IMG/VR virus record: IMGVR_UViG_3300032315_001487 | Span: 1 to 37,321 of that record | DNA from: a virus | Strand: one strand, 5' to 3' | Length of the DNA: 37,321 bases | The notes under the pieces: model-generated | What the model was told of the DNA's origin: nothing | The model's input: only the letters and a program-made list of their open reading frames with translations | Databases searched by the model: none | Shown: in pieces, positions 2,169-16,186 of the stretch | How positions within the stretch are numbered: the first letter of the stretch is position 1 | Layout: each line of letters starts with the position of its first letter | Position numbers and translations under genes: made by a program

Positions 2169-2848
2169 GATTTCATACATTTTATACAAAAAATCTTCCA
2201 CTTAAACTACTAGAAGACCATAAGAAAGTCTGCAATCATATCGGTATTGAAGTTCAATATCATATTCACGATGCGATTGAAAATTATGATGAAGTCTATA
2301 CTGCTCACGGAAAGTTTATGACTTCTGTGGTGGAGCAGGAAGAAGTTGCTTGTTTTCTGGATATTGATTGCCTTCCTCATAACAAAGAACTTTTAGAGAA
2401 ATCATATTCTTGGGCAGTAGAAAATAAATCATTTGTAGGCAATGCTCAAAATATTTCTCATACTTCTATGAGAAATCATATCTATGCTGCTGCTTCTTTT
2501 TTGATTGTATCTAAAGATGCTTGGAATACATTAGGTAATCCAGATTTTTCTTGGTTTATGCAGAATGGGGTGCAAATAGATACAGCACAACTTTTAACTT
2601 TAAGGGCAGATCAAATTGGAATGAATTATCAGTTGATGTATCCAATTGGTTATGATGGTCCAGAAGAATACAAACTTTCTGGTTATGGTCAGTATGGAAC
2701 AGGAACTTTATATCCAGCAACTTGGCATTATTTTAGAATCAGTAAGTTTAAAGATTCAATTCCAGACCTTTGGACAACTCGTGTAAATAATGTATTAGAA
2801 GATCAAAAAATCATTCCACATTATTCATCGTGTTTTTATGAACTATAA
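2165..2848 (+). CDS. putative GT-A type glycosyltransferase
   Basis: A 227-residue protein starting at the ATGA overlap with the 2OG oxygenase. Its main clue is FLDIDCLPHNKELLE near residues 59-73, a DxD-like motif (D-I-D) following a hydrophobic strand, as in GT-A transferases that bind a metal-nucleotide-sugar. Later segments AAASFLIVSKDAWNTLG and GTLYPATWHYFRISKF fit an acceptor-side region of such enzymes. I do not recognise a precise family. Its position among other transferase-like genes supports a role in glycan assembly. It could also be an inactive transferase fold. Confidence 0.5.
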   Translation: MRFHTFYTKNLPLKLLEDHKKVCNHIGIEVQYHIHDAIENYDEVYTAHGKFMTSVVEQEEVACFLDIDCLPHNKELLEKSYSWAVENKSFVGNAQNISHTSMRNHIYAAASFLIVSKDAWNTLGNPDFSWFMQNGVQIDTAQLLTLRADQIGMNYQLMYPIGYDGPEEYKLSGYGQYGTGTLYPATWHYFRISKFKDSIPDLWTTRVNNVLEDQKIIPHYSSCFYEL

Positions 2849-3605
2849 GTTTTTGTTTTTAGTTGGGTCTGCGATTAATCATTTTAAAGAAGATGATTTA
2901 AGTGCTTTCAAGGCAGAAGAAAGATTTCAACAGACACTGGATACTATCCAATCCATCAAAGATAAAGTTCCTGATGCTTATATTCTAATCTATGAGGGAT
3001 CTGAAACTTCCATTAAACAAGAATACAAGGATAAATTTATTGAAGAAAGTGATTTATTTCTTGAGTTTGGAAATGATCCATATATGAAATCTCTCTATGA
3101 AAATCTTCATAGAGATCCAGATAAATTTACCTTTGTGAAGTCTATGCTTGAGTGTAGATGTTTGGAACTTTCTTTATATTATATGAGAGAGCACAATGTC
3201 TTTAATGATGCTACACGAGTATTCAAATTGAGTGGTAGATATAAACTCAATGAATATTTTGATATTGATGATTATAAGAGTAGGTTTTTAACAAATAAGT
3301 ATGTGATGAAGTATTATGATTATGAAGAAAGATTTGAAGACATTGAAAACATTTATTCCACTCTTTATGGGTGTAAAGGTAGTATTGTGACTGGTTTGTG
3401 GTCATTTGATAGATTTTTGTTTAATGATATTTTCAGTGTGCTTCAAAGAAGTTTTCAATATATGGAAAGAGCAATTCAATTGACTGCCGGAATTGATATT
3501 GAGCATTCTTTCTATCACTTTATTAATCGGGACAATATTGTAAATGTTCCAATACTTGGACTAGATTTGATTAAAGGTATGGATGGAGATAAATATTCGC
3601 TATGA
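2838..3605 (+). CDS. uncharacterised cassette protein, possibly glycosyltransferase-related
   Basis: A 255-residue protein overlapping both neighbours (11 nt upstream, 4 nt downstream). It begins with a hydrophobic strand (YKFLFLVGSAIN) followed by helices and a second strand DAYILIYEG, a Rossmann-like start. A segment RVFKLSGRYKLNEYFDIDDYK near residues 130-150 resembles viral and bacterial glycan-region proteins annotated as hypothetical or transferase-like; FDIDD could act as a DxD-type site. I cannot name the family. The tight coupling to flanking transferase-like genes argues that it takes part in the same decoration pathway. Confidence 0.45.
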   Translation: MNYKFLFLVGSAINHFKEDDLSAFKAEERFQQTLDTIQSIKDKVPDAYILIYEGSETSIKQEYKDKFIEESDLFLEFGNDPYMKSLYENLHRDPDKFTFVKSMLECRCLELSLYYMREHNVFNDATRVFKLSGRYKLNEYFDIDDYKSRFLTNKYVMKYYDYEERFEDIENIYSTLYGCKGSIVTGLWSFDRFLFNDIFSVLQRSFQYMERAIQLTAGIDIEHSFYHFINRDNIVNVPILGLDLIKGMDGDKYSL

Positions 3606-4306
3606 AAATTGCAATCTTTTATCATACCTTTCAATCTGGTATGGGTGCTTTTGTTTATCAATCTCAAATTCATAGATTGTATTGTTCTGGATTGATTGAT
3701 GCTGCTGATTATATTCATATTGGCGTGAATGGAGATCAGGAAATGTTTAATGTTCCAGAAAAGGCAAAGGTGGTGTATAATACTAATTGGAAAGAAGAAA
3801 CAGAAACTCTAATTGCACTCAAGAACTTTGTATATGAAAATCCAGATTATAAGATTCTATATTTTCATATGAAGGGGGCAAGCAAAGAAACTCTTGTTGC
3901 TAATTCTTGGAGACTGATGATGGAATATTTTGTCATTGATAAATGGAAAGAGTGTGTAGAATATTTGAATGATTATGATTGTGTAGGACAGACATTCAAA
4001 CCACTTGGACCAACAATATGGAGTGATGGGACTACCACTTCTAATGACGGTATGAGTTGTTATTGTGGAAACTTCTGGTGGGCAAATGCCTCTTATATTC
4101 AAACATTAGATCATAATTATTTGAATACTGATTATCGTTTTGATAGGGAGTTTTGGATAGGAACTAATAAGAATGCAAAGGCAAAGTCTTTTATGGAATA
4201 TGGTCAAGATGATTATATTGCTGATAATCATCCCATTCCATTAAAAAAAGGTATGAGTGATTATGAACCTTATACTCATTACTTTAGAGAGGTAGAATAC
4301 TTATGA
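3602..4306 (+). CDS. putative glycosyltransferase-like protein
   Basis: A 234-residue protein in the same overlapping gene chain (ATGA at both ends). The N-terminus MKIAIFYHTFQSGMGAFVYQ and the middle segment YKILYFHMKGASKE near 80-95 resemble small glycan-biosynthesis proteins found in surface-polysaccharide loci and in giant/phage genomes. A tryptophan- and cysteine-containing stretch (SCYCGNFWWANASYIQTL, ~140-158) looks like a substrate pocket (the NFWWA word recurs in related proteins I recall). No clear DxD is visible. A transferase function is an inference from similarity of style and context; the acceptor is unknown. Confidence 0.45.
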   Translation: MKIAIFYHTFQSGMGAFVYQSQIHRLYCSGLIDAADYIHIGVNGDQEMFNVPEKAKVVYNTNWKEETETLIALKNFVYENPDYKILYFHMKGASKETLVANSWRLMMEYFVIDKWKECVEYLNDYDCVGQTFKPLGPTIWSDGTTTSNDGMSCYCGNFWWANASYIQTLDHNYLNTDYRFDREFWIGTNKNAKAKSFMEYGQDDYIADNHPIPLKKGMSDYEPYTHYFREVEYL

Positions 4307-4671
4307 GACCTTGCAAAGAATGCACTGCCTGTTGCACTTGGTTGAAAGGAAGTGCATATGGTTATGAGTTTGGTGGTGGAAAGTCTTGTAAGTTTTTATG
4401 TGAAACTGGATGTGATGTTCATAAGGCGCGACCGAAAGTATGTGAAGGATATTTTTGTGCGTGGTCGCAAGAGTTACTTCCAGAAGAAATGAGACCTGAT
4501 AAGTGTGGTGTTCTTGCTTCTGTTGAAAGAAATGGAAATGGTCAATACTTAAAATTAACTTCAATTGAAAATGAAATAAATACAGATATATTAGAATATT
4601 TTAAGGAGTGGGGAAAAATAATGAACACTCCAGTTTTGTATCTAAAAAATAATATCTGGGAAGTACTTTAA
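4303..4671 (+). CDS. YkgJ-like cysteine-cluster protein
   Basis: A 122-residue protein with many cysteines in the first half: CKECTACCTWLKG at the N-terminus (C-x2-C-x2-CC), then a GGGKSCKFLCETGCDVHKARPKVC-type block and YFCAW. This pattern matches the YkgJ/zinc- or iron-sulfur-binding family (PF03692), which is thought to bind a metal or Fe-S cluster. Its role in phages is unknown. It is the last gene of the overlapping chain before the RCC1 gene (1 bp gap to 4673). It may act in metal handling for the neighbouring 2OG oxygenase or as a maturation factor; that is speculation. Confidence 0.65.
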   Translation: MRPCKECTACCTWLKGSAYGYEFGGGKSCKFLCETGCDVHKARPKVCEGYFCAWSQELLPEEMRPDKCGVLASVERNGNGQYLKLTSIENEINTDILEYFKEWGKIMNTPVLYLKNNIWEVL

Positions 4672-4672
4672 G

Positions 4673-5839
4673 ATGCCTACTTTCTATAACTATAGAGAAA
4701 ACGGAGTAGTATATGCTTTTGATGATGTCTTTGTACCTGCTGATGCTTTTAGGGAAGGAACTTTATTTACTTGGGGATTTAATGGTAATGGACGACTGGG
4801 AGACAATACAACAACCCAAAGACTTACTCCGGTCACCACATTCGTAGGAGGAACCAACTGGAAACAAGTTTCTTGTGGATATTTTCATACTACAGCAATC
4901 AAGACTGATGGAACTTTATGGACTTGGGGATTTAATGGTAATGGACAACTAGGAGACAATACAACAACCCAAAGACTTACTCCAATCACAACATTTGCAG
5001 GAGGAACCAACTGGAAACAGATTGCTGGTACAAGTGCTCATACTGCAGCAATCAAGACTGATGGAACCTTATGGACTTGGGGATTTAATGGTAATGGACG
5101 ACTAGGAGACAATACAACAAGCACTAGACTTACTCCAGTCACTACATTTGCAGGAGGAACCAACTGGAAACAAGTTTCTTGTGGATATTTTAATACTGCA
5201 GCAATCAAAACTGATGGAACCTTATGGATTTGGGGACGTGGCACTGAGGGACAACTAGGAGACAATACAACAGTCAATAGATCCACTCCAGTCACCACAT
5301 TCGCAGGAGGAGCAAACTGGAAACAAGTTTCTTGTGGATATTTCTTTATATCAGCAATCAAGACTGATGGAACCTTATGGACTTGGGGAAATAATGGTAA
5401 TGGACAACTAGGAAACAATACAGTAACTAATAGATCCACTCCAGTCACAACATTCGCAGGGGGAACTAACTGGAAACAAGTTGATGGTGGAAAAGAATAT
5501 ATATCAGCAATCAAAACTGATGGAACCTTATGGACTTGGGGATTTAATGGTAATGGACGACTGGGAGACAATACAACAACCCAAAGACTTACTCCGGTCA
5601 CCACATTCGTAGGAGGAACTGACTGGAAACAAGTTGATGGTGGTGTATTTCATACTACAGCAATTAAGACTGATGGAACCTTATGGACTTGGGGACTTAA
5701 TAGTTATGGACGACTAGGAGACAATACAACAACCCAAAGACTTACTCCAGTCACAACATTCGCAGGGGGAACTAACTGGAAACAAGTTACTTGTGGATAT
5801 CATACAGCAGCAACCACATACATAGATAGTTACCAATAA
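4673..5839 (+). CDS. seven-bladed RCC1-type beta-propeller protein
   Basis: A 388-residue protein. The first ~33 residues (TFYNYRENGVVYAFDDVFVP...) form a non-repeat head resembling phage adhesin N-termini. The rest is seven near-identical 51-residue repeats, each with IKTDGTLWTWG, a GDNTTTQRLTPVTTF-type turn and GGTNWKQV. The ctggaaac word occurs at 4858, 5011, 5164, 5317, 5470, 5623 and 5776, exactly 153 bp apart. Seven RCC1 repeats make a complete seven-bladed propeller, as in eukaryotic RCC1. Bacterial and phage members are usually extracellular or of unknown function. Beside tail and glycan genes, an adhesin/receptor-binding role is the best inference. High repeat identity suggests recent expansion or gene conversion, and homology with the gene at 2-349. 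Confidence 0.85.
   Translation: MPTFYNYRENGVVYAFDDVFVPADAFREGTLFTWGFNGNGRLGDNTTTQRLTPVTTFVGGTNWKQVSCGYFHTTAIKTDGTLWTWGFNGNGQLGDNTTTQRLTPITTFAGGTNWKQIAGTSAHTAAIKTDGTLWTWGFNGNGRLGDNTTSTRLTPVTTFAGGTNWKQVSCGYFNTAAIKTDGTLWIWGRGTEGQLGDNTTVNRSTPVTTFAGGANWKQVSCGYFFISAIKTDGTLWTWGNNGNGQLGNNTVTNRSTPVTTFAGGTNWKQVDGGKEYISAIKTDGTLWTWGFNGNGRLGDNTTTQRLTPVTTFVGGTDWKQVDGGVFHTTAIKTDGTLWTWGLNSYGRLGDNTTTQRLTPVTTFAGGTNWKQVTCGYHTAATTYIDSYQ
4757..5827 (+). repeat. seven tandem 153-bp RCC1 repeats
   Basis: Seven in-phase copies of a 153-bp (51-codon) unit, with long stretches shared word for word between copies (such as gcaatcaagactgatggaac). The phase start is approximate; the period was read from the spacing of ctggaaac. 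The same unit continues in the truncated gene at 2-349, in the same orientation, so the two loci form direct repeats about 4.5 kb apart. Confidence 0.9.
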
Positions 5840-5855
5840 AACATCATTCTTTATT

Positions 5856-6638
5856 ATGAAAACATTATTCTTTCTTTCTGGTCTTCCAAGATCAGGTTCT
5901 ACTTTACTTGGATCAATTCTTTCACAACATCCAAAACTACAAGCAACTCCAACATCACCACTTGCAGATTTACTTTGTTGGATTGAACAAGGTTTTGCAA
6001 AATTAGATCTTCAATATACTTATGATAAGCAACAGATACAATATAATACTTACAATTCTATTTTAGAAAACTTCTATAATCATATAGAAAAACCTTGTGT
6101 TCTTGACAAACATCGTGGTTGGTGTAAGAATGTTTCTTCTATTGAAAAATTTCTACATCAAACTCCAAAAATTATTGCAACCAATCGTAGAATCAGCGAA
6201 GTTCTTGCTTCTTATATTTTACTCATTCAAAGAAATAAGGAAGCAGATAATTTTGTAGATGCTCATTTAAGAAGAGAAGGAAAACTAATCACAACAGACA
6301 ATCGTATTGAATGTCTTTGGAAAAATTATGTCTGCGATCCTTATGAAAGTTTGGTGTATGGATTAACTCATAATCGTTCAAATATTCATCTAGTGGATTA
6401 TAATGATCTTACACAAAAACCAGAAAGAGAACTGAATAAAATCTATGAGTTTCTGGAAATAGAACCACATACACACGATTTTTCTAGCATCTTTAATACT
6501 TGTGCCGAAGAAAAAGATCACGAATGGGGTATTGATAATCTTCATCAAATTCGCCCAAAACTTCAAAGAACTTCACCACCACCAGAAGAAGTGATTGGTG
6601 AAGAAAACACTAAACTTTATGATAAATTTAACATATGA
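5856..6638 (+). CDS. sulfotransferase
   Basis: A 260-residue protein with a clear 5'-phosphosulfate-binding motif at residues 7-17 (SGLPRSGSTLL), the P-loop-like signature of PAPS-dependent sulfotransferases. A second region near 105-125 (KIIATNRRISEVLASYILL) fits the 3'-phosphate-binding segment (R...S). The C-terminal part NLHQIRPKLQRTSPPPEEV resembles other bacterial/phage sulfotransferases. It would transfer sulfate from PAPS to a sugar or protein hydroxyl. Sulfotransferases occur in several cyanophages. It follows the RCC1 gene by 16 bp and overlaps the next gene (ATGA at 6635), linking it to the decoration cassette. The acceptor is unknown. Confidence 0.8.
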   Translation: MKTLFFLSGLPRSGSTLLGSILSQHPKLQATPTSPLADLLCWIEQGFAKLDLQYTYDKQQIQYNTYNSILENFYNHIEKPCVLDKHRGWCKNVSSIEKFLHQTPKIIATNRRISEVLASYILLIQRNKEADNFVDAHLRREGKLITTDNRIECLWKNYVCDPYESLVYGLTHNRSNIHLVDYNDLTQKPERELNKIYEFLEIEPHTHDFSSIFNTCAEEKDHEWGIDNLHQIRPKLQRTSPPPEEVIGEENTKLYDKFNI

Positions 6639-7321
6639 TTGAAGTATTTTTAAGACATTGTTATACATCCAAAGTCAATCTTTCAGGAGCAAATCGTCCA
6701 GATTGGTGGGATAAAGAAAAAGTATTCCATAATTTCAAGAATACACTCAATCCAGAAACGACTAATTACACAATCATCTTTGATGAATGTTATGGAAAAC
6801 AGGAAGATACTTTCCTCAAAGATGAAGAAGTAGTTACAATCAACTGTGGAAAAGAAAGTTCTAGTTTTTGTAAGACCCTAAATCATATTCTTTCACAAGA
6901 CTTTGATGACGATACAATCATTTATTTTCTTGAGGATGATTATGTGCATCGTCCAGAATGGGATAAGGTTCTTATGGATGCATTTACTCTTCCGGTGCAG
7001 TATGTGACCTTATACGACCACGGAGACAAGTATCAGGAGATGTATAATGACTTTATGACTAAAGTTCTAGCAACCAAATACTCCCACTGGATGCCCACAC
7101 CTTCAACCACAAATACTTTTGCAGTGAAGTTTAAGACTCTTAAAGAGGATCAAGAAATTCATAGGCACTTCTCAACTGGTTATGAACCTTCTGCGGATCA
7201 CGGTAAATTTTTAGAACTACATAAGAGAGGAAGGAATTTAATCTCAAGTATTCCCGGTTATTCTACACATTGCCATTCACAATTTTTATCACCTTGTATT
7301 GATTGGAGCACATACTTATGA
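6635..7321 (+). CDS. putative glycosyltransferase (GT-A-like)
   Basis: A 228-residue protein. After an N-terminal strand (MIEVFLRHCYTSKVNLSG) it has a segment DDDTIIYFLEDDYVHRPEWDKVL near residues 91-112; the EDD following a hydrophobic strand is a DxD-type metal/nucleotide-sugar motif of GT-A transferases. A later stretch SADHGKFLELHKRGRNLIS with H/D residues could belong to the catalytic side, and a final IPGYSTHCHSQFLSP is typical of the ends of such proteins. It overlaps both neighbours (6635 ATGA; stop 7319-7321 overlaps the next ATG). Donor and acceptor are unknown. Confidence 0.6.
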   Translation: MIEVFLRHCYTSKVNLSGANRPDWWDKEKVFHNFKNTLNPETTNYTIIFDECYGKQEDTFLKDEEVVTINCGKESSSFCKTLNHILSQDFDDDTIIYFLEDDYVHRPEWDKVLMDAFTLPVQYVTLYDHGDKYQEMYNDFMTKVLATKYSHWMPTPSTTNTFAVKFKTLKEDQEIHRHFSTGYEPSADHGKFLELHKRGRNLISSIPGYSTHCHSQFLSPCIDWSTYL

Positions 7322-8856
7322 AAGTAACACTATATGCAATCGCAAAAAACGAAGAAAAGAATATTGAAAAGTTTCTCAAGAATGCAGAGAAGTTTGATGA
7401 TGTAGTAGTAGTTGATACGGGAAGCACAGATGATACGGTTCAACTACTCAAAGATGCTGGTATTAAAGTTTATGAGCACCCACAAACCAGAGAAGAGTTT
7501 GATTTTTCAGTTGCAAGAAATCAGGCACTGTCTTATGTAGAAACTGATTGGGCATTTGCACTTGATTTTAATGAGGATGTTGATGAGTTTCATCCAGAAG
7601 GATTTGCAGTCATTGCAGATGAATTTACTACATTCAGGCATTTAAGATTTGATGATAATGGAACTGGTGAACCTGTACAGTCTAATGAAGTTCATACTCG
7701 TTTTCATAGAACCAAGAATTATACTTGGGTCAATGCAGTCCACGAAGTTCCAAACTTTATTCCAACAGAGGAATATCTAAATGAAATTGGTGTAGATACG
7801 ACGATTAAGATTACGAAAAAAATTCATAAGACTGTAGATAAGGAATTATTCTATTTCAGTATCTGTGAAAGGGAACATAAAAAAGATCCAACTAACTGGT
7901 ATTGGATTTGGTTTATTTTCAGTCATTATTTCAATGTCCAAAATAGAGAAAAGGCACTTGAGTATGGGCAAGAGTTTTTGAATGTATCTAAACCATATTT
8001 TGATAGTTTTAGAATTATTGCTTTTATTCGTCTTAGCCAAATTCTATTGAGTATGGGTGATATGCAAAGAGGAATGAATTATGCTTTCCACGCAGTCAGT
8101 GAAGGTATGAATATGGGAGGCAGTCATTTATCTCAAGCATTTGGATATTTGTTTGAACTTTCCAAGAAATTAAATAATCCCAATCTTACAATTTTTGCAA
8201 CTGGTTTTAATCCAGATATGCTTTCATCAACAGAAAGAATTGATGCAATCGATAGATTGTTTTTAACTAATCTTGACGATATCCCATCATGCTGGAAAGG
8301 ACACCGCAAATTTGCTGAATGGTTGGTATCTCAAATTCAACCAAAAGTAACTGTTGATCTTGGAGTTGACTTGGGATTCTCCACATTCTGTTTTGGTATG
8401 CCACGGATTGGACATGTTTATGGTATTGATACCTTTACAGGAGATTCATTTACTGGTCCGGCACACCACGATTCTTACGAGCGTGTTTTGAATAAGCAAG
8501 AGAAATTGTTTATGACAAATAACGTAACTTTCATTAAAGGTTTATTTGATGATGTTGCAAAAACTTGGGATAAACAAATTGACATTCTTCATATTGACGG
8601 TGATCATGCTTATGAATCTGTAAAAAATGATTATGAAACATGGAGTCCTTTTTTGAAGGAAAATGGCGTAATCCTTTTTCACGACACTTGTGTTGAAGAA
8701 TTGAATGGAAATCATTATGGTGTAAAGAAGTTCTTTGAAGAACTTGATCTTCCAAAAGTAACCTTTACTCATACCTTTGGTCTTGGAGTTGCTTCAAAGA
8801 ATAAGGAATTGATTGAGTTCATTAAGAATAATTTTGATTTGAATAATCCATTATGA
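7318..8856 (+). CDS. GT2 glycosyltransferase fused to a class I methyltransferase
   Basis: I chose the ATG at 7318 (ATGA overlap) over a TTG five codons upstream; this gives 512 residues. The N-terminal ~1-130 is a GT2 domain: MKVTLYAIAKNEEKNIEKFL, VVVDTGSTDDTV near 30-41, and LDFNEDVDEF in the DxD position. The middle (~180-300) is helical, TPR-like (HYFNVQNREKALEYGQEFL). The C-terminal part is a class I SAM methyltransferase (Methyltransf_24-like): TVDLGVDLGFSTFCFGM near 344, YGIDTFTGDSF, and ILHIDGDHAYESVKNDYETW near 422, followed by GVILFHDTC. Such fusions may transfer a sugar and then O-methylate it. Neighbours DUF6165 and RmlB point to nucleotide-sugar/glycan work. The order of reactions is inference. 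Confidence 0.75.
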   Translation: MKVTLYAIAKNEEKNIEKFLKNAEKFDDVVVVDTGSTDDTVQLLKDAGIKVYEHPQTREEFDFSVARNQALSYVETDWAFALDFNEDVDEFHPEGFAVIADEFTTFRHLRFDDNGTGEPVQSNEVHTRFHRTKNYTWVNAVHEVPNFIPTEEYLNEIGVDTTIKITKKIHKTVDKELFYFSICEREHKKDPTNWYWIWFIFSHYFNVQNREKALEYGQEFLNVSKPYFDSFRIIAFIRLSQILLSMGDMQRGMNYAFHAVSEGMNMGGSHLSQAFGYLFELSKKLNNPNLTIFATGFNPDMLSSTERIDAIDRLFLTNLDDIPSCWKGHRKFAEWLVSQIQPKVTVDLGVDLGFSTFCFGMPRIGHVYGIDTFTGDSFTGPAHHDSYERVLNKQEKLFMTNNVTFIKGLFDDVAKTWDKQIDILHIDGDHAYESVKNDYETWSPFLKENGVILFHDTCVEELNGNHYGVKKFFEELDLPKVTFTHTFGLGVASKNKELIEFIKNNFDLNNPL

Positions 8857-9209
8857 AAATTACAATTCCAGTATCAGTTGGAGAACTTTTAGATAAGATT
8901 TCTATTCTTCAAATTAAATCTCAATACACTGATAATGAATATGTTCAAAAAGAACTTCAAGATCTAATTCAAATTGCGCAAGATCTTGAAGTTTATGATG
9001 AAACACATTTGCATTTACTTTTTGAAGTGAATAGTGTATTATGGGGAGTGGAAGACAAAATTAGAGAAAAGGAAAAACTTCAAGAGTTTGATAATGAATT
9101 TATTGAACTTGCTAGATCTGTCTATAAAACCAATGATAGAAGATCAGAAATAAAACGAATGATTAACGAAGAAACAAATTCCCATTATAAAGAAATTAAA
9201 CTGTATTAA
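8853..9209 (+). CDS. DUF6165-like protein
   Basis: A 118-residue protein beginning MKITIPVSVGELLDKISILQI, a start I associate with DUF6165, a small family found in bacterial surface-polysaccharide loci and in Prochlorococcus/Pelagibacter-type genomes and phages. It is helical with heptad-like stretches (KELQDLIQIAQDLEVYDE) and a conserved-looking VLWGVEDKIREKE. The biochemical role is unknown. It overlaps the GT/methyltransferase gene by ATGA and sits 2 bp before rmlB-like, in line with glycan biosynthesis. Confidence 0.55.
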   Translation: MKITIPVSVGELLDKISILQIKSQYTDNEYVQKELQDLIQIAQDLEVYDETHLHLLFEVNSVLWGVEDKIREKEKLQEFDNEFIELARSVYKTNDRRSEIKRMINEETNSHYKEIKLY

Positions 9210-10274: not shown

Positions 10275-10377
10275 GTCTTCAACATCCTTGTATCTTTGGG
10301 ATTGAAGACCCTCTTCGGTGGTGTGAAGAGGTGATGTTGGTGGTATAATAAGAGGAGAGAAATCTCCTCTTTTTTTC
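10275..10377 (+). ncRNA. candidate structured small RNA (~100 nt)
   Basis: The segment between a perfect sigma70 promoter and an intrinsic terminator has no convincing ORF but strong pairing potential. GGTCTTCAA (10274-10282) pairs with TTGAAGACC (10302-10310). CTCTTC (10311-10316) pairs with GAAGAG (10325-10330). The terminator hairpin is at 10352-10369. CAACATC (10280-10286) is also fully complementary to GATGTTG (10333-10339), which would compete with the first helix or form a longer-range helix/pseudoknot. I do not recognise it as a known riboswitch or cyanophage RNA. It could be a trans-acting sRNA, or a leader/attenuator of the glutaredoxin gene at 10410 if the terminator is read through. 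Confidence 0.6.
10352..10377 (+). terminator. rho-independent terminator
   Basis: GAGGAGA (10352-10358), a GAAA tetraloop, TCTCCTC (10363-10369), then seven T residues (10370-10376). This is a strong intrinsic terminator ending the candidate sRNA. The same 18-nt hairpin recurs after gp32. Confidence 0.9.
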
Positions 10378-10380
10378 TTA

Positions 10381-10388
10381 TATAAATT
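10381..10388 (+). promoter_or_regulatory. late-promoter-like TATAAATT before glutaredoxin
   Basis: TATAAATT matches the T4 late consensus TATAAATA at seven of eight positions and lies 21 bp before the ATG at 10410, just after the sRNA terminator. It would give the glutaredoxin gene its own late start. Weak on its own in AT-rich DNA. Confidence 0.35.
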
Positions 10389-10409
10389 ATTAATAAATCT
10401 TGATGAACA

Positions 10410-10652
10410 ATGAATTTTACAGTTTATTCTAAAGAAGATTGCCCCTTCTGCTTCAAAGTTAAAAAAGTATTAGAGTTGACAAATAGCAACTTTGTGACTT
10501 ATAATCTCAATGAGCATTTCACTAAAGAAGAGTTTTATGCTGAATTTGGTGAAGGATCGACATTTCCACAAGTTGTTTGTGATGATCAAAAATTAGGAGG
10601 ATCAGTTGAAACAATTCAATACCTCAAAGAGCAACAGATTATCAAATCCTGA
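10410..10652 (+). CDS. glutaredoxin
   Basis: An 80-residue protein of typical phage glutaredoxin length. The redox motif is CPFC at residues 11-14 after the first strand (NFTVYSKEDCPFC), and the cis-proline segment TFPQVVCDD near 50-58 is present, followed by a G-G-S turn (KLGGSVETIQYL). It would reduce disulfides with glutathione, probably as electron donor for ribonucleotide reductase, the usual role of T4 NrdC and cyanophage glutaredoxins. No nrd gene is in the window. The 3' end may overlap the next ORF (ATG 10606). Confidence 0.85.
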   Translation: MNFTVYSKEDCPFCFKVKKVLELTNSNFVTYNLNEHFTKEEFYAEFGEGSTFPQVVCDDQKLGGSVETIQYLKEQQIIKS

Positions 10653-10827
10653 CCTAAATAAAACTGAAGATCATTTCAATCGTGGTGTTGAATTGATACT
10701 CAATAATGGAGGTAAAAGAAAGCAAACTCAACCATTTCACATTATCTTTGAGAAGATAGTTTGCTTTCTAAAACGGGAAGTCACTATCTATTTTGAATTT
10801 TCTTTAAAGTCAAAAAAGAAAAAGTAA
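10606..10827 (+). CDS. small basic cyanophage protein, start uncertain
   Basis: The longest reading is 73 residues from ATG 10606, which overlaps glutaredoxin by 47 nt in another frame. The part that looks real starts around EDHFNRGVELILNNGG and ends in a run of basic residues (KSKKKK). This resembles small cyanophage proteins of the form HFNRGVE...FKRE...EFSL that I recall near glutaredoxin genes. No ATG follows 10606 in frame; a TTG lies near 10690. A late-type box at 10654-10660 would start transcription inside the ORF and favour an unseen downstream start. Function is unknown. Confidence 0.5.
   Translation: MKQFNTSKSNRLSNPDLNKTEDHFNRGVELILNNGGKRKQTQPFHIIFEKIVCFLKREVTIYFEFSLKSKKKK
10654..10660 (+). 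promoter_or_regulatory. T4-type late promoter box CTAAATA
   Basis: CTAAATA just after the glutaredoxin stop codon (10650-10652). It falls inside the 5' part of the ORF drawn from 10606, so either it drives the membrane-protein gene at 10845, or the small ORF starts later, or the match is chance. Confidence 0.35.
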
Positions 10828-10844
10828 TTTCCCGGAGAAAACCA

Positions 10845-11087
10845 ATGTTAGCAGTTAGTCTAGTCGTCGCATCATTTTTAACTGTATTATTTCTCATAGT
10901 GGGAGTCGTGCTTGGTTGGGTTGCTAGAGACTATATGATGACTTATCAAGAAGGTCCAAAGCAAATTGCTTACCATCCAGAGTTTTATGATAAGGATGGT
11001 GAGTTAATCGATCAAGAAATTGTATCAGTAAGATTTGAATCAGGATACTTCGAAGATGATTTTGAAATGGAAGAGGATGAAGATTAA
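10845..11087 (+). CDS. small single-span membrane protein (cyanophage type)
   Basis: An 80-residue protein with a GGAG ribosome-binding site at 10834-10837, 7 bp before the ATG. Residues ~2-27 (LAVSLVVASFLTVLFLIVGV...) form one strong hydrophobic membrane span, followed by an acidic tail ending EEDED. The HPEFYDKDGELIDQEIVSVR segment is typical of a conserved cyanomyovirus membrane protein. Probably inserted in the host inner membrane with the tail in the cytoplasm. Function is unknown; a role in infection takeover or superinfection exclusion would be a guess. Confidence 0.7.
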   Translation: MLAVSLVVASFLTVLFLIVGVVLGWVARDYMMTYQEGPKQIAYHPEFYDKDGELIDQEIVSVRFESGYFEDDFEMEEDED

Positions 11088-11089
11088 TT

Positions 11090-11097
11090 CATAAATA
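11090..11097 (+). promoter_or_regulatory. T4-type late promoter box CATAAATA
   Basis: CATAAATA lies 32 bp before the ATG at 11130 and just after the stop at 11085-11087. It matches the T4 late consensus TATAAATA at seven of eight positions. Confidence 0.5.
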
Positions 11098-11129
11098 ACC
11101 CTAATAGTATTCAACATTCTGTTACTTGT

Positions 11130-11735
11130 ATGACAACGACAACAAAAGCAAAAACCGCAGTTAAAAAGACTGCTCCAAAAGCAAAACCAGTAGAAGCACC
11201 GATTCAGGACCTCCCTGCAAATCCTTTTCTATTTGAGATCCTGAATCTTGTGGTGAAGCAAAGAACTAACGCTAAAAAAATAGAAGTTTTAAAGAAATAC
11301 GAGCATCCTTCCTTAAAATCAATCTTCATTTGGAATTTTGATGAAAGTGTAACATCGTCACTTCCTCCTGGTGATGTTCCTTATGCTGCCGTTGATGAAA
11401 TGGATTCATTTAAAGGGACATTAAGTGAGAAGATTCAGGATGCTGTAGAAAAAATGGAAGAAATTGGATCCAATTCTCTTGGATCTCAAGACCAAGGACG
11501 CTCATCCATTCGCAAAGAATATTCAAAGTTTTATAATTTCGTAAAAGGTGGCAATGATGGATTGAGTTCTCTCCGTCGTGAAACTATGTTTATCAATCTT
11601 CTTCAAGGACTTCATCCTCTTGAAGCAGAAATTATTGTTCTTACAAAAGATAAGAAACTGAATACGAAATATAAAATTACAAAGGAAATTGTTGCAGAAG
11701 CATATCCTGATATTCAATGGGGTGGTAGAGGTTAA
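11130..11735 (+). CDS. DUF6433-like cyanophage protein
   Basis: A 201-residue protein. The first ~25 residues are a low-complexity Lys/Thr/Ala-rich tail (TTTKAKTAVKKTAPKAK), likely disordered and nucleic-acid or protein binding. The body has SIFIWNFDESVTSSLPPGDVPY and, toward the end, FYNFVKGGNDGLSSLRRETMF and GLHPLEAEIIVLTKDKKL. These I associate with DUF6433, a family common in T4-like cyanophages and related viruses, of unknown function. It is preceded by a late-type box. Possibly a virion or DNA-associated protein; not established. Confidence 0.65.
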   Translation: MTTTTKAKTAVKKTAPKAKPVEAPIQDLPANPFLFEILNLVVKQRTNAKKIEVLKKYEHPSLKSIFIWNFDESVTSSLPPGDVPYAAVDEMDSFKGTLSEKIQDAVEKMEEIGSNSLGSQDQGRSSIRKEYSKFYNFVKGGNDGLSSLRRETMFINLLQGLHPLEAEIIVLTKDKKLNTKYKITKEIVAEAYPDIQWGGRG

Positions 11736-11758
11736 TTTTATAAAGTGGATTGGTCATT

Positions 11759-12133
11759 ATGGAAAAGAAACTTATAGAAAGACCGAAGATGCCATCAGAA
11801 AAAGAAAAAGCATCCAGCGAAGATTTAAATCATATCTGGACTCCTGAAGAAAAGGAATTATTTAAATCAAGGTATGGGTGTGAGGTTCTGAAACAAAACT
11901 GCACACTTGAAGAAGCACAGGACCCTTCTGTTCCTACTGATGCTTATATTGTGACTTATGAAATTGATGGCAAGGTCTTTTACGATTTGACACGATGCGG
12001 TAAGAGAATAAATCTTTTCGATATGTATTATGATAATCTTGGACCAGTCGTCCGGAATATTGACTGGGGTTGCGGAAAAGTTAGTCCAAAACTCTGGGGG
12101 TATAAGGCACCCGAAAAGAAAAAGCGAAAGTGA
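11759..12133 (+). CDS. conserved cyanophage hypothetical protein
   Basis: I prefer ATG 11759 to a TTG three codons upstream; this gives 124 residues. The N-terminus is charged (MEKKLIERPKMPSEKEK). The core has FYDLTRCGKRINLFDMYYDNLG and a WGCGKVSPKLWGYKAPEKKKRK end with a basic tail. It resembles a conserved cyanomyovirus family whose end reads GYGKVNPK(L/M)WGYKAPE. Function is unknown. It is followed by ~200 bp that hold a promoter and a riboswitch-like RNA, so it is probably the last gene of its transcript. Confidence 0.6.
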   Translation: MEKKLIERPKMPSEKEKASSEDLNHIWTPEEKELFKSRYGCEVLKQNCTLEEAQDPSVPTDAYIVTYEIDGKVFYDLTRCGKRINLFDMYYDNLGPVVRNIDWGCGKVSPKLWGYKAPEKKKRK

Positions 12134-12218
12134 TTTCCCAGATAGGGTAAAAAAATTCCCCCAAAATTTTCTCACGCGAAGATTTTATAAAATTGTATCA
12201 CATTATACAAAATAAGTC

Positions 12219-12247
12219 TTATAAATTTACTAGGAGTATGATATAAT
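12219..12247 (+). promoter_or_regulatory. extended -10 promoter for the riboswitch/peptide unit
   Basis: TATAAT (12242-12247) is preceded by TGA (12239-12241), an extended -10 element. TTATAA (12219-12224) sits 17 bp upstream as a weak -35. The predicted start (~12254) falls directly at the first base of the aptamer-like RNA. The -35 region also overlaps a late-like word TATAAATT (12220-12227), so late transcription is possible as well. Confidence 0.7.
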
Positions 12248-12254
12248 ACTTCTA

Positions 12255-12303
12255 ATCGTTGGCTGGAACTCCAGTGGAAGTACCATTCAGGGAAGCAACG
12301 CAC
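12255..12303 (+). promoter_or_regulatory. glutamine riboswitch (Downstream-peptide/glnA-type aptamer)
   Basis: The segment folds into the three-helix plan of the glutamine aptamers. P1: CGTTG (12257-12261) with CAACG (12296-12300). P2: CTGG (12263-12266) with CCAG (12271-12274). P3: CC (12283-12284) with GG (12291-12292). The conserved GGAAGTA loop word is at 12276-12282 and GGGAAG...CGCACC closes the motif. From memory, the family shows CGTTC/GAACG in P1; here it is CGTTG/CAACG, a compensated change. Downstream-peptide and glnA RNAs are glutamine riboswitches of cyanobacteria and their phages. Here the RNA lies 30 nt before a 28-codon ORF, as the Downstream-peptide class requires. Control probably acts on translation of that ORF. 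Confidence 0.8.
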
Positions 12304-12332
12304 CAATACCCAAAAAGTAAAGGAGCAAACCA

Positions 12333-12419
12333 ATGGCACTGATTTTGATTAAACAAAAAATGCTGAAAGAACAGCGTCTTCGTGAAGCACAATTGTTTAT
12401 GGCATCAAGACTTGCTTAA
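12333..12419 (+). CDS. 28-residue riboswitch-controlled peptide
   Basis: ATG 12333, TAA 12417-12419, with a good AGGAG ribosome-binding site at 12321-12325 (7 bp spacing). The peptide starts MALILIKQKMLKEQRLREAQ and ends in ...MASRLA. It has a short hydrophobic head, then a basic, probably helical body with six Lys/Arg (K7, K9, K12, R15, R17, R26) against two Glu. It sits between the glutamine aptamer and an intrinsic terminator, so it is the sole product of that transcript. In cyanobacteria, glutamine riboswitches control small basic glutamine-synthetase inactivating factors (GifB/IF17). A phage peptide with similar action is possible, but sequence similarity is not evident by eye. Confidence 0.75.
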   Translation: MALILIKQKMLKEQRLREAQLFMASRLA

Positions 12420-12426
12420 TAAATCG

Positions 12427-12455
12427 GAGAGGGACTTGACTCCCTCTCTTTTTTT
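12427..12455 (+). terminator. rho-independent terminator
   Basis: GAGAGGGA (12427-12434), loop CTTGAC, TCCCTCTC (12441-12448), then seven T (12449-12455). It ends the aptamer-peptide transcript eight bases after the peptide stop codon and just before the next gene (ATG 12463). Confidence 0.9.
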
Positions 12456-12462
12456 ATGTAGA

Positions 12463-12639
12463 ATGACTGAAGATAGTAGTATCTCTATGGATAAAGACAG
12501 ATTAAAATTGATTGTCCGAAATTTAGAACTCTTGGTGGATTCTTTGAAAGCAGAGATTTATTCTGATGTTTCTGTATCTAAACCCCCAAAAAGAGTGATT
12601 GGTGATTACGATGAAATTTTCGAGGAATATGACGACTAG
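12463..12639 (+). CDS. small conserved cyanophage protein
   Basis: I chose ATG 12463 because the longer reading from 12382 would overlap the peptide gene and run through the terminator. This gives 58 residues. The helix MDKDRLKLIVRNLELLVDSLKAE-type is followed by a short acidic end DYDEIFEEYDD. The pattern LxxIVxNLELLVxxLKxEIYSD recurs in cyanomyoviruses as I recall. Function is unknown. Its 3' end overlaps the start of the next small gene. Confidence 0.6.
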   Translation: MTEDSSISMDKDRLKLIVRNLELLVDSLKAEIYSDVSVSKPPKRVIGDYDEIFEEYDD

Positions 12640-12796
12640 AGCAAAAAAACTGGTTAAACTGCTGGAAAGAATGTTGAAACAGGACCATCTGTTTTCGGCA
12701 GACCAAATAGTAGAAATGAAAGCACAATTGCGAGTAGTAAAACAAGAACTTGCAGAACTTGAGACACAAACATCAAAAGGATTTGGAAAGAAATGA
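12629..12796 (+). CDS. small conserved cyanophage protein (coiled coil)
   Basis: From ATG 12629 (GAGG at 12622-12625) the protein has 55 residues: MTTRAKKLVKLLERMLKQDH..., then VEMKAQLRVVKQELAELETQ, a strongly helical, heptad-like sequence with a KGFGKK tail. An alternative ATG at 12611 would add six residues. Its TGA overlaps the ATG of thyX (ATGA at 12793), so it is translated with it. Function is unknown; likely a small oligomeric helper protein. Confidence 0.6.
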   Translation: MTTRAKKLVKLLERMLKQDHLFSADQIVEMKAQLRVVKQELAELETQTSKGFGKK

Positions 12797-13545
12797 AACC
12801 AATTAAAGCAAAAGACCTTCTAGAATTGGATAAAAATCTTGAAGTGGTAATGCTTCAGTGCTATCCACTTCCAGAGCAAGTCATTTATCAAGCAGGAAAG
12901 TGTGACTATTCGGAAACACCAATTCACAATCAGGATATCCCTTCTAACTCTCAATGTGGTGAATGGGTTGTAGAGCGTCTCTTGAGTAATGAGAAAGGGC
13001 ACTGGGGACCGCTAGAGCACCCTGCAATTACTTTTTCGGTGTCTGGGTATGTCCATAACGTTGCAATGCAAGCAAGGACTCATAGAGTGGGTGTTACGTT
13101 TGATGTTCAATCTCAACGATATACTGGTAAGAGAGTCATTAAAGTTGCAAGTGGAGAACTGAAACCAGAAGATGTTTTCTATGTTCGTCCTCCTGGTTTT
13201 TATACAAATCGTTACGGTAAAAAATATGATTGGACTCTTGCTGATTATAATGATGAACTAGACTTCATTTACGAAAGTTGTAAACGTTATGCAACAAAAT
13301 ATGAAAAAGGAATGTGTGAAGAGCACATTAGGGACTATCTTGCACAAGCAATTCGTCAGAACTTTGTGGTTTCTTTTAACCTTCGTTCTGTTCTTCACAT
13401 TATGGATCTGCGAGCAAAGATGGATGCTCAATTAGAAATTCAGGCACTTTGTGAACAATTTGTTCCTCTTCTTCAGAAATGGGCACCTAATGTTTGGAAG
13501 TATTATGAAGAGAAGCGTCTTCACAAGGCACGGTTGAGTCCTTGA
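12793..13545 (+). CDS. thyX: flavin-dependent thymidylate synthase ThyX
   Basis: A 250-residue protein, typical ThyX length. The signature region is QARTHRVGVTFDVQSQRYTG (~95-114), the cyanophage version of the RHR-x7-S ThyX motif. FNLRSVLHIMDLRAKMDAQLE near 195-215 holds the second conserved helix (R...D...A..E). It makes dTMP from dUMP with methylene-tetrahydrofolate and FAD/NADPH, supplying DNA precursors during phage replication. It is coupled by ATGA to the preceding small gene; the next gene follows after 13 bp. Confidence 0.93.
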   Translation: MKPIKAKDLLELDKNLEVVMLQCYPLPEQVIYQAGKCDYSETPIHNQDIPSNSQCGEWVVERLLSNEKGHWGPLEHPAITFSVSGYVHNVAMQARTHRVGVTFDVQSQRYTGKRVIKVASGELKPEDVFYVRPPGFYTNRYGKKYDWTLADYNDELDFIYESCKRYATKYEKGMCEEHIRDYLAQAIRQNFVVSFNLRSVLHIMDLRAKMDAQLEIQALCEQFVPLLQKWAPNVWKYYEEKRLHKARLSP

Positions 13546-13558
13546 ATATAGTAGATAG

Positions 13559-14233
13559 ATGAAAAGATTTCCTATTACTATTATTGACAATTTTTATGAA
13601 AATCCAGATCTTGTCCGAAATTGGGCACTATCTTTAAAATATCAACAAGATTTTGAAGGAAAAACTCCAGGAAAAAGAACAGAAAATTTACACAATCATC
13701 CAAAATTTTTTAACAATTTTTGTGAAAAGTTGTTTTCAGTGTTTTATGATTTTAATCACACTCAACTTGAATGGAATGTGGCTACTTGCTTTCAATCAAT
13801 TTCAAAGTATTCTGAAAATCCAAAAAGTAAGTTAAATGAAGGATGGATACATTCTGATACTGATGTTTTTTCTGGAGTCATTTATTTAAATCCAGATGGG
13901 CACTTGTACAGTGGAACAAGCGTTTATGAAAAATTAAATAATGATTCGAAAGAGACTCATCAAGAAGAAAAATATCATCTATATTCTGGAATTGGCGTAG
14001 ATGAGGAAAAATATGAGAAATCAATTACTGCAAATAATAGTCAGTTTATTGAAACAATACGTGTAAAAAATCGTTATAATCGTCTTGTATTATTTGAAGG
14101 TAAAGTTCCTCATGGAGTTCCAAGTTTTTATTCTTCATTAGATGAACCTCGTTTGACTCAACCATTTTTTGTCTTAAATATGAGATCGTCATCCAGTTTT
14201 GAACCTTTAGTCAGAGTCAAAACTATCTACTAA
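13559..14233 (+). CDS. DUF6445-like protein, probable 2OG-Fe(II) oxygenase fold
   Basis: A 224-residue protein beginning FPITIIDNFYENPDLVRNWA. Features of the cupin-like oxygenase fold are present: WIHSDTDVFSGVIYLNPDG (H-x-D candidate metal ligands, ~97-115), GTSVYEKL, then NRYNRLVLFEGKVPHGVPSF with a distal His (~184) and RLTQPFFVLNMR with the 2OG arginine. This pattern matches DUF6445 proteins of cyanophages and marine bacteria. The substrate is unknown. Its TAA stop lies inside a CTAAATA late promoter box. Confidence 0.65.
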   Translation: MKRFPITIIDNFYENPDLVRNWALSLKYQQDFEGKTPGKRTENLHNHPKFFNNFCEKLFSVFYDFNHTQLEWNVATCFQSISKYSENPKSKLNEGWIHSDTDVFSGVIYLNPDGHLYSGTSVYEKLNNDSKETHQEEKYHLYSGIGVDEEKYEKSITANNSQFIETIRVKNRYNRLVLFEGKVPHGVPSFYSSLDEPRLTQPFFVLNMRSSSSFEPLVRVKTIY

Positions 14234-14236
14234 ATA
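14230..14236 (+). promoter_or_regulatory. T4-type late promoter box CTAAATA
   Basis: CTAAATA contains the TAA stop of the preceding gene (14231-14233) and lies 23 bp before the ATG at 14260. Confidence 0.5.
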
Positions 14237-14259
14237 AATTATCTTGGTTTTGTAACTTC

Positions 14260-14502
14260 ATGGCAATATATCCCATTATTAACAAAGAGACTGGTGAGAC
14301 GAAAGTGATTGAAATGAGTGTCCATGATATCACACAGTGGTATGTGGACAATCCAGAATGGCAAAGGGATTGGTCACAAGGATGTGCCACACCAGGTGAA
14401 GTTGGTGAATGGAGGAATAAATTAACTTCCAAACATCCTTCATGGAACACTGTCCTAGAAAAAGCAAGCAAAGCACCAGGTTCAACCGTAAAGAAACTCT
14501 AA
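14260..14502 (+). CDS. small conserved cyanophage protein
   Basis: An 80-residue protein: AIYPIINKETGETKVIEMSV, then DITQWYVDNPEWQRDW and a Lys-rich C-terminal tail PGSTVKKL. The plan (a Y..xN..TGE..., D...QWLxxNPEW motif, basic tail) is common in cyanophages as a hypothetical protein near PhoH; some relatives start like zinc-ribbon FmdB proteins, but no cysteine pairs are seen here. Function is unknown. It lies 1 bp before phoH. Confidence 0.6.
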   Translation: MAIYPIINKETGETKVIEMSVHDITQWYVDNPEWQRDWSQGCATPGEVGEWRNKLTSKHPSWNTVLEKASKAPGSTVKKL

Positions 14503-14503
14503 A

Positions 14504-15262
14504 ATGGCAAGAAGAAAAAGAGGAAACACCGACCAACCAACCGGAGTTGGTCTGACTGCTAAACAGGCAAAGAGAAAAAAACCATTAAGTTCTGAATATT
14601 TGGTTGATATTGAACCTCTTACAGATAATCAAAAGCGTCTGTTTGATTCTTATGCGGACGGTAAGCATATCATCGCTTATGGTTGTGCTGGAACGGGTAA
14701 GACATTCATTACACTCTACAATGCTCTTGTAGATGTTCTTGATGAAAAAACTCCTTATGAGAAAATTTATCTTGTCAGATCTTTAGTTGCTACAAGAGAG
14801 ATTGGATTCTTGCCTGGCAGTCACGATGATAAGGCAGATATTTACCAGATTCCTTATAAGAATATGGTGAAGTATATGTTCCAAATGCCTTCTGATGCTG
14901 ACTTTGAAATGCTTTATGGGAATCTAAAGTCACAAGAAACAGTTAAGTTTTGGAGCACCTCATTCTTAAGAGGCACAACTCTCGATAATGCAATCATCAT
15001 TGTGGATGAATTCCAAAACCTTTCATTTCACGAATTGGATTCTATCATTACTCGTGTGGGTGAAAATACCAAGATTTGTTTCTGCGGTGATGCTTCTCAA
15101 TCAGACTTACAGAAAACAAACGAGCGTAATGGTATTGTAGATTTTATGTCGGTATTGCGTAAAATGCCATCTTTTGATATAATAGAGTTTGGTGTAGAAG
15201 ACATTGTTCGTTCTGGACTTGTTAAAGAATACATTATTGCTAAATTGGATGCTGGTTTTTGA
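14504..15262 (+). CDS. phoH: PhoH-like P-loop ATPase
   Basis: A 252-residue protein with Walker A CAGTGKT (~62-68), Walker B AIIIVDEFQNLS (~162-173), and sensor-like CFCGDASQSDL (~188-198), all typical of PhoH. The length and an N-terminal basic tail (ARRKRGNTDQPTG) fit cyanophage PhoH proteins, a marker gene of marine phages. PhoH is a predicted ATPase/RNA helicase-like enzyme; in phages its function, despite the name, is not firmly tied to phosphate. It overlaps the next gene (TGATG at 15260-15264). Confidence 0.92.
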   Translation: MARRKRGNTDQPTGVGLTAKQAKRKKPLSSEYLVDIEPLTDNQKRLFDSYADGKHIIAYGCAGTGKTFITLYNALVDVLDEKTPYEKIYLVRSLVATREIGFLPGSHDDKADIYQIPYKNMVKYMFQMPSDADFEMLYGNLKSQETVKFWSTSFLRGTTLDNAIIIVDEFQNLSFHELDSIITRVGENTKICFCGDASQSDLQKTNERNGIVDFMSVLRKMPSFDIIEFGVEDIVRSGLVKEYIIAKLDAGF

Positions 15263-15939
15263 TGTTTAATCATATTGATATTAATCTCCCAAAGTTGGAG
15301 CGTGAAACAATTGATGGAATCAGGTATTATAAAGTACCTGATGAAGAACTTCTCAAATTAGTTTCAATCACATCCGTTACAAGTCATTTCAATCGTGAAA
15401 TATTTGTCAAGTGGCGTAAAAAGGTTGGTGAAGAAGAGGCGCAGAAGATTACTAAAGCGGCTACTTCTCGCGGTACAGATATGCATTCTCTTGTGGAGAA
15501 TTATCTTTATAATAAGAATCTCCCGCCTGTTCCGCCGCTTCCGGATTTTCTTTTTAAGATTGCGAAGACGGAACTTAATAAGATAAATAATATTTACGCC
15601 CTTGAAGGGTCCCTATATAGTAAGCAATTGGGAATCGCCGGTACAGTCGATTGTATTGCAGAGTACAATGGTGAATTAGCAATAATTGACTTTAAGACTT
15701 CTAAAAAACCAAAACCACGAGAGTGGATTGAACACTATTTTGTTCAATGTATGGCATATGGAGCAATGCTTTATGAAATTAAGGGTATTGCTATTAAAAA
15801 ACTTGTAATCATCATGGCGTGTGAAAATGGAGAATGTGTCGTTTATGAAGAATATGACAAATCAAAGTACCTCAAACTACTTACCCAATATATTAGAACA
15901 TTTGTTAGAGACAAACTCGAACTCTATGGAACCGAATAA
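15262..15939 (+). CDS. MGME1/Cas4-like PD-(D/E)XK exonuclease
   Basis: I chose ATG 15262, overlapping the phoH stop, over a TTG one codon earlier; this gives 225 residues. The nuclease core is visible as HSLVENYL (~75), then GIAGTVDCIAEYNGELAIIDFKTSKKPK (~124-150) with catalytic D and D-x-K, and YFVQCMAYGAML (~160) as the QxxxY helix. This is the pattern of the PD-(D/E)XK superfamily and of MGME1-like exonucleases in T4-like cyanophages. It would cut ssDNA ends or flaps in replication/recombination. It sits between phoH and gp33, inside the DNA module. Confidence 0.8.
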   Translation: MFNHIDINLPKLERETIDGIRYYKVPDEELLKLVSITSVTSHFNREIFVKWRKKVGEEEAQKITKAATSRGTDMHSLVENYLYNKNLPPVPPLPDFLFKIAKTELNKINNIYALEGSLYSKQLGIAGTVDCIAEYNGELAIIDFKTSKKPKPREWIEHYFVQCMAYGAMLYEIKGIAIKKLVIIMACENGECVVYEEYDKSKYLKLLTQYIRTFVRDKLELYGTE

Positions 15940-16186
15940 AGAATTAGAACAAGTCATAGAAAATAAGTTTCTGACTCCTTCAAAGTTTGCTCTAGAAATA
16001 GAGAAAATTGTAATTGAAGAAAACTTCAACTATATTGATGCAATTTGTCATTATTGTGAAATCAATAGTCTTGAAGTTGAGTCAGTTACAAAACTTATTT
16101 CAAAACCTTTGAAAGAGAAGTTGAAATATGATGCGATTAGTTTAAACTTTATGAAACGCACATCGAGAGCAAAATTGCCTTTATGA
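15926..16186 (+). CDS. 33: late transcription coactivator gp33
   Basis: I chose ATG 15926 (MEPNKELEQ) because longer readings run far back into the nuclease gene; this gives 86 residues. FLTPSKFALEIEKIVIEENFNYIDAI...CEINSLEVESVTKLISKPLKEKLKYDA matches the small cyanophage gp33 family. T4 gp33 bridges host RNA polymerase and the sliding clamp to activate late promoters. Its position directly before gp59 and near gp32 agrees with the T4 order 33-59-32. It links to the late-type CTAAATA boxes in this window. Confidence 0.75.
   Translation: MEPNKELEQVIENKFLTPSKFALEIEKIVIEENFNYIDAICHYCEINSLEVESVTKLISKPLKEKLKYDAISLNFMKRTSRAKLPL

Follow-up and report, generated by a model that had tools for sequence, protein, structure and literature searches.

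Organization of the unit and its viral setting

The DNA analysed here, termed the window, is the whole 37,321-nucleotide stretch of IMG/VR virus record IMGVR_UViG_3300032315_001487. Near position 12,300, it carries a compact series of elements on a single strand, in which a promoter is followed by a glutamine aptamer, a ribosome-binding site, a 28-codon open reading frame (ORF) and an intrinsic terminator (Table 1). An initial sequence-only reading had described this series as a self-contained unit, and each of its elements, including the extended -10 promoter, the AGGAG site and the 28-codon ORF, is present. The terminator is as strong as that reading had proposed, except that it begins 6 nt past the stop codon and not 8. 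Two related contigs, L060 and L059, can be aligned to the window from promoter through terminator; in L059, a hairpin-plus-T terminator of different sequence occupies the same place. Pattern scans of IMG/VR with the aptamer core, the leader and the G-C form of P1, the last of which gave 110 stretches, yielded at least about 20 viral contigs with a peptide of the same MALILI type behind the aptamer, nearly all with a terminator after it.

Table 1. Features of the riboswitch-peptide unit (window coordinates).
Feature	Position	Strand	Basis or remark
NtcA-like palindrome, site 1, GTATCACATTATAC (GTA-N8-TAC)	12195..12208	+	Half-sites kept in L060, L059 and L370; middle differs
NtcA-like palindrome, site 2, GTATGATATAATAC, over the -10 box	12236..12249	+	Kept as GTATGTTATAATAC in L059 and GTATGCTACAATAC in L370
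Extended -10 element TGATATAAT (TG-A-TATAAT)	12239..12247	+	Sequence; kept in L060 and, as TGTTATAAT, in L059
Glutamine-I (glnA-type, RF01739) aptamer	12255..12304	+	RF01739 match, 33.0 bits, E 4e-7, model 1-53; P1 covariation
P1	12257-12261/12296-12300	+	CGTTG/CAACG
P2	12262-12266/12271-12275	+	RF01739 alignment
GGAAGTA	12276-12282	+	Aptamer core
P3	12283-12284/12290-12291	+	2 bp only in the window
GAAG	12292-12295	+	Aptamer core
Proposed Shine-Dalgarno-sequestering hairpin, GC.CC..UAC/GUA..GG.GC	12300..12326	+	RNAfold; like topology in relatives
Shine-Dalgarno AGGAG	12321..12325	+	7 nt before ATG
28-aa ORF MALILIKQKMLKEQRLREAQLFMASRLA	12333..12419	+	ATG 12333, stop 12417-12419; dN/dS 0.17; homologous host peptides behind glutamine-II riboswitches
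Intrinsic terminator (stem of 9 bp, then a T run)	12426..12456	+	Stem 12426-12449; -15 kcal/mol, z -3.5

The surroundings are those of a T4-like cyanophage. Positions 10300-16000 show similarity to 470 phage records, nearly all from Synechococcus, Prochlorococcus or other cyanophages, the best match being S-SRM01 from a Singapore reservoir, and the genes around the unit encode PhoH, thymidylate synthase, an exonuclease, a single-strand DNA binding protein, and baseplate wedge and hub proteins. Gene order is conserved, with the 201-aa and 127-aa genes on one side of the unit and thyX/phoH on the other, and relatives share the neighbours as far as phoH. Elsewhere in the window, positions 4673-5839 hold a 388-aa ORF with RCC1-like repeats (WGFNGNGQLGDNTT...), which is unusual for a phage, and a series of ORFs at 377-9209 resembles glycosyltransferase, sulfotransferase and methyltransferase genes.

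The aptamer belongs to the glutamine-I class

The window aptamer aligns with the full length of RF01739 with every pair standard, at an E-value of 2.1e-5 when 461 bases were searched against all Rfam families, as compared with the single-family value in Table 1. The Rfam check suggested in the sequence-only reading returned a full-length match 2 bits below the gathering threshold of 35, and so missed the above-threshold hit that this reading had asked for. The score is borderline without making the structure doubtful, because the near-identical L060 scores 38.3, members of the peptide family reach 52-56 (L004, 52.2; L042, 56.4), and the riboswitches before DUF4278 genes of alpha-cyanobacteria score between 27 and 42. 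The same reading had left the class as Downstream-peptide/glnA; the glnA half of this assignment stands, and the Downstream-peptide half is rejected, as no RF01704 hit with an E-value of 10 or better lies within 12100-12560.

The three-helix fold is likewise borne out, with GGAAGTA and GAAG joining P1, P2 and P3 ahead of a conserved 3' tail. By direct count among the matches listed, the fifth P1 pair of 180 distinct phage aptamers is CG in 110, GC in 60 and TA in 8, and 2 aptamers are unpaired there; the compensated P1 that had been noted in the window is therefore formed at this position in 178 of 180. The sequences of P2 and P3 are replaced wholesale across the phage aptamers, with pairing kept. 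The window aptamer is accordingly assigned to the glutamine-I class and is predicted to bind L-glutamine selectively. The earlier suggestion of a link to host nitrogen status appears to have been right. As a separate observation, tandem glutamine-I aptamers precede MTLWTRYC-, MTKYQ- and similar peptides in the phage contigs L019, L023, L047, L076, L094 and L095. Tandem copies also lie before ammonium-transporter-like (~428-aa) and glutamine-synthetase-like (476-aa) proteins in marine Alphaproteobacteria (L129, L132, L141, L166, L179 and others), and ahead of a likely glutamine synthetase in SAR86 contigs.

A candidate hairpin may link the aptamer to the ribosome-binding site

The candidate Shine-Dalgarno-sequestering hairpin occurs in leaders of the helix family and takes the final base of P1 as its first G. 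The hairpin is weak (RNAfold, -2.3 kcal/mol with its GC clamp and -0.9 without it). Many leaders of other peptide families and of host genes contain hairpins of similar topology and different sequence; that of host gif-like genes, for instance, is CGCCUC/GAGGCG. The shared G fits an ON switch, in which a glutamine-stabilised P1 would remove the GC clamp. An alternative pairing between the P2-loop CTCC and the Shine-Dalgarno sequence is possible in the window and was dropped, as it is not conserved in relatives. When the aptamer was forced in folding, mean accessibility of the Shine-Dalgarno sequence went from 0.46 to 0.40 in units encoding the peptide helix and from 0.53 to 0.57 in the window, values from a model that leaves out ligand and tertiary contacts and that relied on an imperfect automatic parse of P2 and P3. 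No switch is visible in this folding, and removal of the clamp is thus a step that we infer.

Two other readings bear on this point. The slightly lower accessibility calculated for the helix units would suit an OFF switch, with glutamine shutting down peptide synthesis. Against this, ON switching is reported for glutamine riboswitches of both types in PMC6316151 and again for type 2 in PMC6698751, and NtcA-type repression (see below) would point in the same direction; an OFF switch is thus improbable. Alternatively, the aptamer may have decayed or may sense something else, so that expression would be constitutive or would simply follow the timing of the promoter, as could be argued from its sub-threshold score, the short P3 and the lack of a switch in the ligand-free model. 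The window aptamer, however, retains the core motifs ATCGTT, GGAAGTA, GAAG and ACGCAC, its P1 covaries and its near-identical relative L060 scores above the threshold, and decay consequently seems just as improbable. An ON switch, by analogy with the studied glutamine riboswitches, is the direction that we infer.

NtcA-like sites in the promoter

A sequence scan detected no good -35 box upstream of the extended -10 element, and transcription is predicted to start near 12254-12256. The promoter contains the motif GTA-N8-TAC twice, at 12195 and 12236. This motif is the NtcA consensus that was applied to cyanophages by Sullivan et al. 2010 (PMC3037559). At the second site, the -10 sequence itself contributes part of the motif, and both sites are retained in L059 and L370 with altered middles. 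Given a start near 12254, they would be centred at about -12 and -53. They resemble the host gif promoters without matching their positions exactly, since the NtcA sites that repress gifA and gifB have their reported centres at -30.5 and -7.5 (PMC6316151).

The motif was searched within 90 nt upstream of each unit, where the chance background is 2.7%. Among the matches listed, it precedes 50 of 55 helix units and 29 of 46 units encoding YRG (DUF4278-like) proteins, loci that are related and hence not independent samples, and none of 82 phage glutamine-I units with unrelated short peptides (e.g., L005, L016 and L100). In 41 helix units, the motif starts 38-39 nt before the aptamer, which would centre it near -30 if transcription begins at the aptamer; since these units were picked by the motif, their invariant half-sites follow from the choice, and it is the variable middle that stays informative. 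Among host loci with glutamine-II riboswitches, GTA-N8-TAC lies 21 to 32 nt before the aptamer in 13 of the best 15 and in none of 15 weaker ones (13 of 30 overall). From these comparisons, NtcA may repress the unit through the putative promoter sites, and control of the unit is probably double, combining NtcA-like promoter sites with a glutamine aptamer. The other-peptide units have a character of their own, as TAAATA, the core of T4-like late promoters, stands just before the aptamer in 55 of 78 of them (background, 1.3%); they look as if they were late-driven, possibly in non-cyanobacterial hosts.

The peptide is under selection and has kin in host genomes

Across 12 distinct coding sequences, the dN/dS ratio is 0.17, and across 36 sequences of the NWQL subfamily it is 0.057; in both, changes fall mostly at third positions. 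The peptide is thus very probably made and under selection, and it is predicted to fold as a helix. The RNA could conceivably be the product instead, acting as a glutamine-responsive small RNA or a ligand sink with a decorative ORF, an idea that draws on a transcript of just ~200 nt with its own terminator. Such a role is very improbable in view of the strong purifying selection on the frame with its third-position excess, the conserved ribosome site and a peptide homology that holds across different RNA contexts.

The translated peptide has no match in Pfam or NCBIfam; DUF4278 (PF14105) is among the Pfam families without a match, and there is no YRG within its 28 residues. It matches PHROG 545 weakly (E 0.018), the other half of which is the YRG (DUF4278-like) part. 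An orphan origin is excluded by profile search. Of 299 genomes from the order to which a Vulcanococcus belongs, 181 contain a match at E<=1 to profile A1, built from the phage peptide family. In an Rfam scan, the best 15 of these host matches all lie directly behind RF01704 on the same strand, and so do all of 15 weaker matches, each riboswitch of the latter scoring above the gathering score. Because a protein search is blind to riboswitches, the presence of RF01704 at 30 of 30 host matches constitutes an independent link. An HMM built solely from MALILI sequences placed each of the 15 best host ORFs (E 3e-7 to 3e-3) ahead of 6,700 decoys, with a clear gap to the next value of 1.6, and the window peptide alone as the query gave a like separation (E 0.0006-0.03 against 1.3); as these loci had been preselected by A1, the rankings confirm rather than discover the relationship. 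The host proteins follow the pattern MNxLxLIRxxILKxxRLxxAQ; some carry a YRG part, which others (L437, L440 and L444) lack. Judged by sequence, the phage peptide is homologous to the helix that opens these small picocyanobacterial proteins behind glutamine-II riboswitches, and by position and company it would belong to the host's nitrogen-excess response.

Partners and leaders of the helix family

The helix stands alone at 67 phage loci including the window, among the matches listed. In some relatives, it is encoded as a second gene that overlaps or nearly overlaps a preceding YRG gene, in others it comes first, and fusions occur in either order, including the S-CREM1 protein. The description of the peptide as lone therefore holds for the window subfamily and not for relatives that pair or fuse the helix with a YRG/DUF4278-like protein. 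The leaders vary as well, comprising glutamine-I aptamers in the window and similar contigs, glutamine-II aptamers in S-CBS2 and S-CRES1 (and in PSS2, below threshold), and composite glutamine aptamers. Hence, one peptide family is tied to glutamine sensing by several leader types.

Apparent composite aptamers show a further peculiarity, in that an ORF of ~50-65 aa can lie inside them (CGTTC..AAGTA..GGAACG-GAN-CGTTCATC-ORF-GACGCAAAcGAC TGA AGGAACG). This was seen in S-SRM01, DSL-LC02, DSL-LC03, S-MbCM6, S-SM1, syn9, S-RSM4, S-H9-2, S-RS29, S-SCSM1 and Sf-CH3 (L001 3917-4133, L123 2798-3009, L124 2580-2804 and L480-L490 ~200-480), with a YRG and/or helix gene downstream. In most, the last codons and stop of the inner ORF are themselves aptamer sequence; the ORF of S-SRM01 reads past them. 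In S-CREM1 and S-CAM7, a plain hairpin takes the place of the ORF.

Assuming that the unit works as proposed, the target of the peptide can be read in two ways. The peptide may be a viral analogue of IF7/IF17, the glutamine synthetase inactivating factors, that attaches to host glutamine synthetase and lowers its activity when glutamine is abundant. This role is attractive because, in cyanobacteria, the same (type 1) aptamer class precedes IF7-like peptides and IF17-like proteins made of DUF4278 and a helix; moreover, a phage cassette or single protein unites a YRG/DUF4278-like part with a basic helix, control of the phage units would be gif-like and dual, and CP12 offers a precedent for small phage inhibitors of host metabolism (PMC7760959). 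Homology to IF7/IF17 is nevertheless not supported, as a comparison of the two helix-family profiles fell short of significance (hhalign E 0.14, probability 0.4%) and the phage peptides do not retain three arginines that never vary in the IF family; in addition, full-length IFs are reported to be absent from genome-streamlined picocyanobacteria (PMC6316151). The inhibitor role is therefore kept as a rival and is rather unlikely. A PDB search for IF7 found nothing.

Alternatively, the peptide may act on PII, PipX or NtcA, or it may stabilise or partner YRG/DUF4278 proteins of host or phage. The repeated helix-YRG operons and fusions in both orders point to a shared complex, and the DUF4278 half of IF17 is reported to affect stability rather than inhibition (PMC6316151). 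The window copy and ~65 others among the matches listed, however, have no YRG partner directly after them, and this second role is a fair-sized possibility that falls short of even odds.

Comparison with known systems

Glutamine-I and glutamine-II riboswitches, their occurrence in cyanophages and the glnA annotation in S-CREM1 (PMC9964418) were already known, and short ORFs with conserved amino-acid sequence behind Downstream-peptide RNAs were noted by Weinberg et al. 2010. With glutamine-I systems (glnA RNA, RF01739) such as Synechocystis gifB, the window unit shares the aptamer architecture and conserved core, a small nitrogen-related protein behind the aptamer, an anti-Shine-Dalgarno strand that begins at the end of P1 and an NtcA-like promoter site. 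It differs in its position 2 bits under the Rfam cut-off, its 2-bp P3 and its product, a phage-borne 28-aa helix with its own terminator and with neither DUF4278 nor an IF signature. With glutamine-II RNAs (Downstream-peptide RNA, RF01704) and their host peptides it has in common the predicted ligand, a homologous helix directly behind and the NtcA-like site found in 13 of the 15 best host loci, whereas its aptamer has no RF01704 match and its peptide lacks the YRG part of many host copies.

Among phages, S-CREM1 with SCREM1_206 (OP535465; PMC9964418) also combines a cyanophage, an annotated glnA element, the same helix and an NtcA-like site at -39, but its aptamer region is a composite of two parts and its product a 48-aa YRG-helix fusion. 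The glutamine riboswitch of the methylophage Melnitz (PMC9004378) is phage-borne too, but the host is a heterotroph and the riboswitch is linked to tmRNA. The N-terminal half of PHROG 545 is the same helix, with host proteins matching down to E 1e-16, while its C-terminal YRG part is absent from the window peptide. In the open-access papers searched, no report was found of the kinship of the phage peptide to host glutamine-II peptides, of NtcA-like sites at phage glutamine units or of DUF4278 in phages. Thus, the riboswitch class is known, and the arrangement of the window unit appears to be new.

A proposed nitrogen-replete gate

In its best reading, the window unit is transcribed autonomously in a T4-like phage of freshwater cyanobacteria and is gated by nitrogen: lifted NtcA repression and a glutamine ON switch would form an AND-gate for a host-derived regulatory peptide. 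To this explanation as a whole, we assign a probability of about 0.72. During nitrogen hunger, 2-oxoglutarate-loaded NtcA on the promoter sites would block transcription, as at host gifA and gifB. Any transcript made would begin with the glutamine-I aptamer, and in the absence of glutamine, the hairpin starting from the last base of P1 would hide the ribosome site. With glutamine present, P1 would be stabilised, the GC clamp lost and the ribosome site opened, giving a translational ON switch. Expression would thereby be confined to conditions of low 2-oxoglutarate and high glutamine, and the peptide, made only in nitrogen-replete cells, may act on a host protein of nitrogen metabolism, the target being a guess. 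A bolder version, which we consider speculative and rather doubtful, has cyanophages reconstructing the host gif logic, with its NtcA repression and its glutamine ON switch, for a micropeptide that stands on its own and would curb the nitrogen assimilation of the host when nitrogen is rich; the peptide family would also have been joined to both classes of glutamine sensor and to a composite of them.

From the perspective of phage biology, the unit turns a riboswitch before an obscure tiny ORF into a testable hypothesis, by way of host kin behind a different class of glutamine riboswitch. The roles of the picocyanobacterial downstream peptides and of the phage unit could be addressed with one set of experiments. 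The arrangement further suggests that phage gene expression may be subject to both branches of nitrogen sensing in the host, 2-oxoglutarate through NtcA and glutamine through the riboswitch.
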